NCBI RefSeq assembly: GCF_011762095.1
Contig: NZ_JAASQO010000001.1
Coordinates: forward strand, 310,001 to 374,000
Reading direction: 5' to 3'
Origin: Parvibaculum indicum
Lineage (GTDB): Bacteria; Pseudomonadota; Alphaproteobacteria; Parvibaculales; Parvibaculaceae
Length of the DNA stretch: 64,000 nucleotides
Each line of letters begins with the position of its first letter. The first letter of the stretch is position 1. This document shows positions 8,740 to 11,418 of this stretch, in pieces. The position numbers and the translations under genes are program-made. The notes beneath the pieces were generated by a model. That model had not been told where the DNA came from. It saw only the letters and a list, made by a program, of their open reading frames with translations, and did not search any database.

Positions 8740-9279
8740 TTACCCCGCGGGGTGAGGCCTGCCGCGTCCGTCCCCTGCGATACCGGCATATGCCGCGGCC
8801 TTTTGCAGCGCCATGAGCCCCGCCAGCGCAAGCACGTTCACAGCGAAAATTTCCCGCATGATTTCGCCCGTGAAGGCCCCGAATCCCGATTGCATGGCCA
8901 TCGCCGTCATATAAAGCACCGCTTCATATGCGAGAAAAGCCACCATCAGCCCAAAGGCCGCGGAACCGAAATCGCCGAAACGCGAGATGACGGATCGTAT
9001 CTGGAAAACGGCCAGCGTCGCCATCAAAGCCCCCGCGCCGATCGCAGCGCCCCAGAGGAACGTGCTCGCCGCAAGCGGATAGCCGAGAAGGCCAAAACCG
9101 ATCGCCTGATTGACGCCCCACGCCGCGCCGACAAGCAACAATCCGTCGCGACGGCTCATATTCAGGGCGGCGACCGTTGCCAGCGCCGCAAACGGCGTCG
9201 CGCAGGTGAACACATAGCTCAACCCCACACTCGCCGCGCCAAGGATACCGAACAGAATCCATTGCCGGTTATCATTCAT
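8740..9279 (-). CDS. Riboswitch-controlled integral membrane protein, candidate B12 or cobalt uptake
   Basis: This 179-residue protein consists of five or six hydrophobic segments with short loops and no catalytic motif that I recognise. A single early cysteine, C26, sits at the end of the first helix in VFTCATPF. The tail is basic and rich in Gly/Pro. The size and topology resemble S-components of ECF transporters, including the BtuM-type B12 carrier, but I cannot confirm homology. The only functional clue is the cobalamin riboswitch that precedes it, with no other gene in between. A role in cobalamin, corrinoid or cobalt uptake is therefore inferred. No ATPase or T-component gene lies nearby. 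Confidence 0.65.
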   Translation of the reverse strand: MNDNRQWILFGILGAASVGLSYVFTCATPFAALATVAALNMSRRDGLLLVGAAWGVNQAIGFGLLGYPLAASTFLWGAAIGAGALMATLAVFQIRSVISRFGDFGSAAFGLMVAFLAYEAVLYMTAMAMQSGFGAFTGEIMREIFAVNVLALAGLMALQKAAAYAGIAGDGRGRPHPAG

Positions 9280-9410
9280 CTCTACGTCTTCCTTTCCGCC
9301 CCACCCGGGCTCTCGTCGGGGGAATGCATGAAGGCCTGAAAGGAAAACGGATGACGCCGCCTGCCGTCAGCCTTCGGAGCACCCCGCCCGAGGAATGAAC
9401 ATCGTCTTGT

Positions 9411-9595
9411 TACGGCAGGTCTCCTGGCTCGCGGCTCAATGCGATGGCCCGCCTTCCCGATGCACCGGCACCAGTGGCAGATCATGGGCAATCGCTCGCC
9501 GCTTACAGTTGCGGGGGCAGCTCCGGCCTTGTTCATGGAAAGAACGCACCGGATTCCCTCGTCCCGCCATGGGGGCGGGACGCCGTAACGGCCCG
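9411..9595 (-). promoter_or_regulatory. Cobalamin (B12) riboswitch
   Basis: Read on the minus strand, the element shows the ordered conserved blocks of the cobalamin aptamer. They are a 5' ACGGCGTCCCGCC arm with its complement, GGGAATCCGGTG (about 9557-9546), GGAGCTGCCCCCGCAACTG (about 9523-9505), the B12 box GCCACTG (9478-9472), and the closing GAGCCAGGAGACCTGCC (9430-9414). It lies about 130 bases upstream of the membrane protein at 8740-9279. No hairpin followed by a T-run is seen after it, so control is probably at translation initiation. The remaining 9596-9813 should hold its promoter and that of the divergent cyclase gene. Confidence 0.95.
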
Positions 9596-9813
9596 AGAGT
9601 GGCGATCCAGACGCGCGTGTCAAGGAAACAACTTCCCAGCGGGCGCCCCATGCCCGGCAGCAATTACCTGCTTACCGGAACCTTGACGGCATTTTTTCGC
9701 AGAAAACTGTGCGTTTTAACTTTGGCAAGGTGCTTGCTTCCTGCCAGTCAGGCTGAAATCCAGGACTGGTCCCGTACCAACGATACGAGGGACCTGATCG
9801 GGGGGACACAGAG

Positions 9814-10530
9814 ATGGCACGAACAAATCATCTGGGGGCGATGGGAAGCTATGCGTCTCCCGACGTCGTGGGCGAAAGATCCGATTCTCTGACCGCACGC
9901 TTTCGCGACATGATGTCGGCGAGCCCCTCCAGCGGCGCGGACCGCCATCTGATGGAACGCGCGCTTGCCTATGCGCGGGAAGCGGAAACCCGCATCATGG
10001 AACTCAATGAGCGCGTCCACCGCCTGGAGGCGCTGAGCCAGACCGACGAACTGACCGGCCTTCTCAACCGGCGCGGCTTCCACGACATCCTTCACCGCAA
10101 TCTGATGAGCGCCACGCGCTACAGCGAAACCGGCGTGCTCGCCTATATCGATCTGGACGGCTTCAAGGCGGTAAACGACGAACACGGTCACGCCGCGGGC
10201 GACGAAGTGCTGCGCGCCGTGGGCGCCTATCTCAAGCGGAGCGTTCGCGCGACCGATTTCGCCGCGCGTCTGGGCGGCGACGAATTCGCGCTGATCTTCG
10301 TGCGCGCCGACATCCGCCCCGCCAGGGAACGCGCCCGCGACATCGTGCGCGGCATCAACTCGCTGAAGGCCGTCTATTCGAATGTCGAACTGCCGGTCAA
10401 GGCAAGCCTCGGCACCGCGACCTATCACGGCGAGACGGACGGTCACGAACTGATGGAACGCGCCGACCGCGCCATGTACCGCGCCAAGAAGCAACGCCCG
10501 CGCATCGTACCCTTCACCATGCACGAATGA
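9814..10530 (+). CDS. GGDEF-domain diguanylate cyclase
   Basis: This 238-residue soluble protein has a short N-terminal region with a predicted coiled coil (about 50-75, MERALAYAREAETRIMELN) leading into a complete GGDEF domain. It has DELTGLLNRRGF, the metal-binding YIDLDGFK, the signature GGDEF, and an RxxD inhibitory site (RATD) just upstream. It should make c-di-GMP. There is no receiver, PAS or membrane domain, so the input is unknown; the coiled coil may drive dimerisation. It is the second diguanylate cyclase in the window after PleD and is divergent from the B12 riboswitch. Confidence 0.92.
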   Translation: MARTNHLGAMGSYASPDVVGERSDSLTARFRDMMSASPSSGADRHLMERALAYAREAETRIMELNERVHRLEALSQTDELTGLLNRRGFHDILHRNLMSATRYSETGVLAYIDLDGFKAVNDEHGHAAGDEVLRAVGAYLKRSVRATDFAARLGGDEFALIFVRADIRPARERARDIVRGINSLKAVYSNVELPVKASLGTATYHGETDGHELMERADRAMYRAKKQRPRIVPFTMHE

Positions 10531-10545
10531 CGCTAGAGACCGCGC

Positions 10546-11418
10546 TCACGGTTTCCCGTGATGAGCCGAAATGGGGTGATACAGCTCCGGACGCCTGTCA
10601 CGGAAAAGGCCCCAGCCGACGCGGCGCTTGCGGATTTCGTCCAGGTCGAATGTCGCCGTGATGACTTCCTGCTTGTCGCGGCTGGCCTCCGCCACGATCT
10701 CGCCCGTCGGACCCGACAGGAACGACGACCCGTAAAACGTCAGCTCGCATTCCTCGCCGACTTCCTTCCCGATCCGATTCGACGCGACCAGCGGCACGAT
10801 ATTCGCCGCCGCATGGCCCTGCATGACGCGCTGCCAGTGATCGCGCGAGTCGATGGGCGGCGCGGGCGGCGGCTCCGACCCGATCGCCGTGGGATAGAAA
10901 AGCGCCTCCGCCCCCTGCACGGCCATGGCGCGCGCGGCTTCCGGGAACCACTGATCCCAGCAGATCGCCGCGCCGAACCGCCCATAGGCCGTATCCCAGA
11001 CCTTGAAGCCGGTATCGCCGGGCGAGAAATAGTACTTCTCCTGATAGCCCGGCCCGTCGGGAATATGGCTCTTGCGATAAAGGCCCAGCACCTCGCCATC
11101 CGCGTCGATCATCACCAGCGAATTGAAATGCGCATGATGCGCGCGCTCGAAAAAGGAAAGCGGCAGGACGACCTTCAACTCCTTCGCCAGATCGCGCATA
11201 CGCTGGATGAGTTCATGCTCCATCGCCTCAGCGGCGAGCTCGAAATGCTCCGGCTTGCGTTCCTTGCAGAAATAGGGCGTTTCGAAAAGCTCCTGCAGAA
11301 GGATCGCCTGCGCGCCTTTCTCCGCCGCTTCCCGTACCAGCGAGACCGCGCGATCGACATTCTCGTCCCGCGCCCAGCTGCAGGCCATCTGCGTGGCCGC
11401 GAATGTGACTTCCCGCAT
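10546..11418 (-). CDS. aguB: N-carbamoylputrescine amidase
   Basis: This 290-residue nitrilase-superfamily hydrolase has the Glu-Lys-Cys triad: E in LLQELFETPYFC, K in GLYRKSHIP and C in AAICWDQWFPE. The phrase ELFETPYFC and the overall length match plant-type N-carbamoylputrescine amidase, which releases putrescine, CO2 and ammonia in the agmatine route to polyamines. No agmatine deiminase gene is within the window. The start ATG is followed by the family-typical REVTFAATQMAC. It is divergent from the RidA gene. Confidence 0.9.
   Translation of the reverse strand: MREVTFAATQMACSWARDENVDRAVSLVREAAEKGAQAILLQELFETPYFCKERKPEHFELAAEAMEHELIQRMRDLAKELKVVLPLSFFERAHHAHFNSLVMIDADGEVLGLYRKSHIPDGPGYQEKYYFSPGDTGFKVWDTAYGRFGAAICWDQWFPEAARAMAVQGAEALFYPTAIGSEPPPAPPIDSRDHWQRVMQGHAAANIVPLVASNRIGKEVGEECELTFYGSSFLSGPTGEIVAEASRDKQEVITATFDLDEIRKRRVGWGLFRDRRPELYHPISAHHGKP

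Follow-up and report, generated by a model that had tools for sequence, protein, structure and literature searches.

The protein encoded by a single gene on the minus strand of the window, the stretch of 64,000 nucleotides of the Parvibaculum indicum genome analysed here, is probably a solitary corrinoid (vitamin B12) transporter of the inner membrane that adopts the fold of an S-component. It would work in the manner of BtuM, which is a likeness of working and not a claim of identity. The protein is part of a diverged family, all of whose members identified here come from Alphaproteobacteria. The features that bear on this reading are a complete cobalamin riboswitch ahead of the gene, the recurrence of riboswitches, TonB-dependent receptors and cobalamin genes next to its relatives, one invariant cysteine, a predicted S-component fold, and a genome without EcfT. 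The riboswitch and the gene are located as follows.

9397 to 9602, minus strand: cobalamin riboswitch aptamer (RF00174; 124.3 bits, model positions 1-189, E 9.4e-31)
8740 to 9279, minus strand: gene of a 179-aa, six-helix inner-membrane protein, a predicted solitary S-component-fold corrinoid transporter (from the ORF, family alignments, the AlphaFold model and fold matches)

The first-pass annotation of this DNA had recognized a complete cobalamin riboswitch, and the Rfam model bears this out, since the aptamer spans all 189 model positions and its 124.3 bits compare with a gathering threshold of 31.5. Its 5' end lies at 9602, seven bases past the interval given at that time. Among the six cobalamin riboswitches of the 4.02 Mb genome, this one has the second best score. 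When adenosylcobalamin is plentiful the riboswitch would turn the gene off, and the product would be made only under scarcity. Two parts of the leader are relevant to this switch.

9382 to 9389, minus strand: segment GGGCGGGG just past the aptamer, able to base-pair with the conserved CCCCGC in its loop L5
9280 to 9396, minus strand: leader from the aptamer to the start codon, the expression platform (fold z-score 0.09)

We take the segment GGGCGGGG to be L13, the kissing partner of L5 in riboswitches of this class, and it is probably the loop of a regulatory kissing hairpin. All ten leaders in which the gene follows the aptamer directly carry GGGCGGGGTG (GGACGGGGTG in one) within about 15 nt after the aptamer. 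The complementarity to L5, formed in the window by GGGCGGGG and the aptamer segment GCCCCCGC, recurs in each of the other nine leaders of the direct type (GGACGGGG in one). The consensus fold of these leaders is weak, and the window leader, folded as a single sequence, does no better than its shuffles. In several relatives, L13 could pair with a C-rich segment close to the start codon. This pairing beats shuffled sequences in L037, L040, L041, and L042, and is no better than a shuffled sequence in the window leader. Elsewhere in the window, an EcpR1 small RNA (RF02500) is detected at 1153-1271 on the minus strand with 88 bits.

The gene is the first open frame downstream of the riboswitch, starts with an ATG 118 nt after the aptamer and encodes 179 residues, in keeping with the initial description of a lone gene for a membrane protein of that length. 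Because the genes on both sides, for a 2-hydroxyacid dehydrogenase and a GGDEF protein, are on the opposite strand, it forms a single-gene unit. In 20 further Parvibaculum genomes the dehydrogenase and GGDEF genes are still adjacent, with neither the riboswitch nor the membrane-protein gene between them, and the interval is either empty or, in eleven genomes, occupied by an unrelated lipoprotein gene. Riboswitch and gene co-occur at this site, where they are both present or both missing, and the intergenic site is a place of repeated gene turnover. The lipoprotein of the eleven sister genomes (L095, L096, L097, L098, L099, L100, L105, L107, L108, L109, and L110, with the site empty in about ten others) is itself conserved, about 295 aa long and, by eye, similar to formylglycine-generating enzymes.

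The claim that the protein falls outside the known transporter families agrees with the searches. Pfam returned only a chance-level match to a phage holin (E 0.11) and no sequence match to its S-component families, NCBIfam returned zero matches, and PDB sequence searches with profiles of 26 and 31 family members retrieved no chain at E up to 10. A family of unrelated, established function was found in none of these Pfam, NCBIfam and PDB profile searches. Scanning GTDB contigs with the single protein as query detected one close relative only, and whole-genome searches were required to recover the family. Counting the own genome, these identified homologues in 7 genomes out of 61 from near relatives, in 19 out of 387 from the class and in 11 out of 397 from the phylum, and all of these homologues belong to the same class. 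Two additional homologues are encoded on plasmids of Methylocella and Sphingobium, and a weak match in G180, which has an E of 5.8e-4 and contains a stop, was excluded from every count. The family as studied comprises 34 loci in 31 host genomes and an alignment of 31 sequences, whose identity to the window protein is 27-42%, with the exception of one close relative at 85% (G015). A literature search, on an incomplete search base, found no paper that describes it. The family is apparently unnamed and resembles BtuM in its apparent working, and it might coincide with one of the predicted transporters CbtC-CbtG.

Six residues are invariant in the alignment (C26, P29, Q58, G61, Y67, and W76) and nine more are conserved in at least 90% of the sequences (A32, A34, N57, L65, P68, G77, G81, A84, and L155). 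There is no conserved histidine, and no aspartate or glutamate of the periplasmic loops is conserved beyond 17 of the 31 sequences. The early cysteine that had been singled out in the window protein is the sole conserved one of the family.

9202 to 9204, minus strand: codon of C26, invariant in 31 of 31 sequences, in the predicted periplasmic loop L1 (residues 24-29, position from the model), candidate cobalt ligand

The AlphaFold models of the window protein (pLDDT 91.4, pTM 0.86) and of its homologue from G090 (pLDDT 90.9, pTM 0.85) both adopt the S-component fold. Where five or six hydrophobic helices had been proposed, the window model has six, at residues 3-23, 30-40, 43-63, 71-93, 95-129, and 138-164. 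No match was significant with Foldseek alone, whose best E was 0.6 and which ranked the S-component 5edl fifth, and the relation became clear from the second comparison, made with VIA-align. In it, S-components and ECF complexes fill 12 of the top 13 rows of the window model with Z scores of 9.1-11.6, among them RibU (11.6), BioY (10.7), CbiM (10.6), ThiT (10.3), and PanT (10.2). BtuM with hydroxycobalamin (8ovv) is tied for the best match with a Z of 11.6 over 161 residues at 3.9 A, values near 11 being in the range that calls for caution with helical bundles. Outside the S-component group MreD reaches 9.6, and unrelated rows score 7.4 and below. The top three rows of the G090 model are S-components as well (Z 9.4-10.1, the next row at 6.3), and 8ovv is not in this list, whose candidate set was smaller. 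The S-component matches of the two models align over 142-167 residues, so that six helices and most of the chain agree, an assignment that concerns the fold only. The early impression of S-component-like size and topology is thereby supported. The same fold also occurs in proteins other than transporters, such as MreD, listed above, and certain receptor domains (PMC11109136).

The charges of the loops place both termini, L2 and L4 inside and L1, L3, and L5 outside. Accordingly, L1 (with C26 and P29) and L3 (with L65, Y67, and P68), the two periplasmic loops that hold the most conserved residues, face the periplasm, which is also the side on which BtuM binds cobalamin (PMC6072759).

A cobalamin riboswitch (RF00174) precedes the family gene on the same strand in 26 of the 34 loci, where about 0.2% would be expected by chance (our estimate, from six sites in 4 Mb, a distance within 3.5 kb and the correct strand). 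The linkage is direct in ten loci, at 92-124 nt, and of longer range in 16, at 2.1-3.5 kb with other genes between; the eight remaining loci (L039, L045, L046, L047, L054, L075, L077, and L082) have no riboswitch in position. It persists over tree branches of 0.5-1.6 changes per site, and the gene arrangements on the tree require at least eight changes, so that it is not one inherited frozen arrangement.

In 15 of the 16 longer-range loci, the genes between riboswitch and family gene include one for a TonB-dependent receptor. The B12 receptor model TIGR01779 is the best model for both receptors scanned, with 325 and 132 bits, under its curated cut-off of 600. The one exception is G403, with the order riboswitch, btuF, btuC, btuD and family gene (L051 124-4000), and two of its close relatives (L075, L077) retain the gene at the equivalent position, where both riboswitch and btuFCD are missing. 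CobO is encoded near the family gene in two loci, and CobW and CobN adjoin it in others. The statement that no ATPase, TonB receptor or cobalamin synthesis gene is near therefore holds for the direct neighbours in the window and fails for relatives, in which TonB receptors directly adjoin the gene.

Seven loci (L036, L037, L038, L040, L041, L042, and L049) carry a gene for a BtuF-like protein (Peripla_BP_2) 3-9 bases 3' of the family gene, and weaker BtuF-like matches follow it in G606 and G621. L044 has also been counted with the loci that carry such a binding protein behind the family gene. In L037 the BtuF-like gene (10324-11142, plus strand) begins 3 bases past the last codon of the family gene, and its binding-protein domain starts at residue 7. 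As this leaves no room for a signal peptide, the protein is apparently cytoplasmic, and a possible role for it is that of a trap or chaperone for the imported corrinoid.

Two domains of unassigned function (DUF) are also found in this neighborhood. DUF7676 lies between the TonB receptor and the family gene in four loci (L033 7305-7904, L052 10399-11004, L079, and L080), and its position behind a cobalamin riboswitch in all four suggests a role in B12 uptake. DUF1636 is encoded immediately 3' of the family gene in two loci (L034 8510-8914 and L078) and also near CobW and CobN in L042, and this company makes a cobalamin- or metal-related function probable. A literature search for either domain together with cobalamin returned no paper. 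The genome G562 has two copies of the unit of riboswitch, TonB receptor, DUF7676 and family gene (L079 and L080), on different contigs and beside similar nitrilase-like genes.

B12-binding domains are encoded by all 31 host genomes. CobI/CbiL is found above cut-off in 11 of them, so that de novo corrin synthesis is probably absent from the other 20. Eleven hosts (G046, G090, G138, G147, G225, G229, G242, G362, G397, G562, and G621) have no convincing FecCD permease, the superfamily of BtuC, with nothing above 30 bits as opposed to a best member of more than 270 in every other genome. Nine hosts, among them G046 with a genome only 77% complete, lack both a convincing FecCD/BtuC permease and CobI/CbiL. 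Five of these (G090, G138, G147, G225, and G362) have riboswitch, TonB receptor and family gene in consecutive order. EcfT/CbiQ (PF02361), found in 10 control genomes, is missing in the own genome and in 24 of the 30 other hosts (25 of 31). The protein had been expected to act alone or with shared partners, and the lack of this module is in favor of the former.

The own genome encodes BtuB-, BtuF-, and BtuC-like proteins, cobW-cobN and cobT behind or near its other cobalamin riboswitches. Since a BtuC/BtuF-like system is already available, the protein would serve here as an additional route or have a different corrinoid preference. This, together with the btuFCD genes ahead of the family gene in G403, means that the family does not just stand in for BtuCD in every genome. 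Two further loci of this genome deserve mention. In L061 (6138-9700) a cobalamin riboswitch is followed by an acyl-CoA-thioesterase-like gene and then by metE, and the B12-independent methionine synthase may be controlled through this leading unrelated gene. In L059 (12363-17203) cobW and a full-length cobN are found behind a cobalamin riboswitch, yet no CobI/CbiL is above cut-off, and the genome is a case of a cobaltochelatase without an evident corrin pathway.

The proposed transporter would bring a complete corrinoid, cobalamin or a different one, from the periplasm into the cytoplasm, and would need neither an ECF module nor BtuCD. For the outer-membrane step it would rely on a TonB-dependent B12 receptor, whose gene shares the operon in many relatives and lies at another place in this genome. 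The site for the corrinoid would be made up of L1 (C26, P29) and L3 (L65, Y67, P68). The cobalt would probably have C26 as its lower (axial) ligand, a role analogous to that of Cys80 in BtuM and exerted from a different loop; C26 could instead have a structural role. The simplest idea for the driving force is facilitated entry followed by trapping, either through adenosylation or by a BtuF-like protein. A more detailed version of this scheme, which we put forward as a tentative proposal, is that of an alphaproteobacterial family separate from BtuM, whose L1 cysteine would hold the corrin cobalt and which would, in part of its members, hand the corrinoid to the cytoplasmic BtuF-like protein encoded directly behind it.

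Many B12-requiring Gram-negative bacteria possess BtuB but no BtuCDF, and their inner-membrane carrier is mostly unknown (PMC6072759). The family would fill this gap in at least five of the genomes examined and, if the proposal is right, would explain how some B12-requiring bacteria import the vitamin without the usual ATP-driven partners. It would then constitute a second kind of solitary B12 carrier with an S-component fold, beside BtuM, and a good comparison case for how a six-helix protein transports so large a molecule when no ATPase assists it. Its gene would also be a simple genomic sign that an alphaproteobacterium takes up B12.

The closest known system is BtuM from Thiobacillus denitrificans (PDB 8OVV), in which the cysteine that binds cobalt, Cys80, belongs to L3 (Rempel et al. 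2018, PMC6072759). Both proteins have a size of about 20 kDa, a six-helix S-component fold with the two termini inside, one invariant cysteine in a periplasmic loop (as predicted here for the family), hosts that mostly lack an ECF module, and genes linked to a B12 receptor, a linkage to BtuB having been reported for BtuM (PMC6072759). Given the tied structural match as well, the family could be a highly diverged branch of BtuM proper, a reading that overlaps in function with the one preferred here. It is unlikely nonetheless, as there is no detectable sequence similarity, the two profiles having matched no PDB chain although the PDB includes BtuM. The cysteine of the family is moreover in L1 rather than L3, with no conserved cysteine in residues 64-70, so that the BtuM-like cysteine of the first-pass annotation is upheld in its conservation and not in its position. 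The pocket residues H28, D67, and R153 of BtuM have no conserved counterpart either. Also unlike BtuM, the family, found here only in Alphaproteobacteria, is under direct riboswitch control in ten loci.

A cobalt carrier had been named alongside a B12 or corrinoid carrier. The protein would in that case take up Co2+, like the predicted Cbt transporters, to supply cobalamin synthesis or salvage, and C26 would bind the metal ion. Cobalt transporters are indeed known B12-regulated genes, as in cbtBA, repressed via a B12 riboswitch (PMC8123684), and the types CbtA-CbtG and CbtX are, like this family, predicted transporters tied to B12 genes or riboswitches (PMC2667541). The fold matches include the cobalt S-component CbiM, Co2+ could be bound by a conserved cysteine, and CobN and CobW are present in the own genome. 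Cobalt nevertheless seems quite an unlikely substrate. It fits less well because most hosts seemingly make no corrin, the main use of cobalt, and because the nearest partner is a TonB receptor, both of those scanned being closest to the B12 type. The Cbt types, by contrast, are essentially always found in B12 producers (PMC2667541). Bare metal-ion sites, in addition, usually need a histidine or acidic loop residues of the kind that the family does not conserve. The carrier part of the early proposal is supported, with cobalt its less likely variant.

S-component-type carriers are known for precursors of the lower ligand (CblT), and a transporter of another part of the pathway, such as an incomplete corrinoid (cobinamide), alpha-ribazole or dimethylbenzimidazole, would be expected to show the same regulation; cblTS is listed for DMB uptake (PMC8123684). 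The BtuC-like system of the own genome also leaves room for a second carrier that differs in substrate. Such a substrate is improbable, however, as small bases and ribosides need no TonB receptor, a partner that accompanies the family gene in 15 loci, and as the genomes without BtuC have the gene alone behind the receptor, which favors a complete corrinoid.

Least likely is an accessory protein or sensor with an S-component fold that does not transport the corrinoid and either aids BtuCD or the TonB system or changes the corrinoid chemically (e.g., by removing its upper ligand): the gene is fourth in the btuFCD operon of G403, the own genome has a BtuC/BtuF-like system, the fold is found in receptors too (PMC11109136) and BtuM joins transport with decyanation (PMC6072759), but a convincing FecCD permease that it could aid is lacking in 11 of the 31 hosts, the relatives L075 and L077 retain the gene without btuFCD at the site, and no signalling domain is attached.

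As a predicted solitary S-component-fold corrinoid transporter, the protein can finally be compared with the two canonical arrangements for uptake across the inner membrane. With the ECF S-components RibU, BioY, ThiT, PanT, and CbiM it shares the predicted fold and the orientation, whereas most of its hosts lack the EcfT/CbiQ partner and its sequence matches no S-component family of Pfam. With the ABC importer BtuCDF it shares the regulation, the outer-membrane receptor and, in one genome, a place directly after btuF-btuC-btuD; unlike BtuCDF, the family has neither an ATPase nor the FecCD fold, and occurs in the 11 genomes without a convincing permease of that superfamily.
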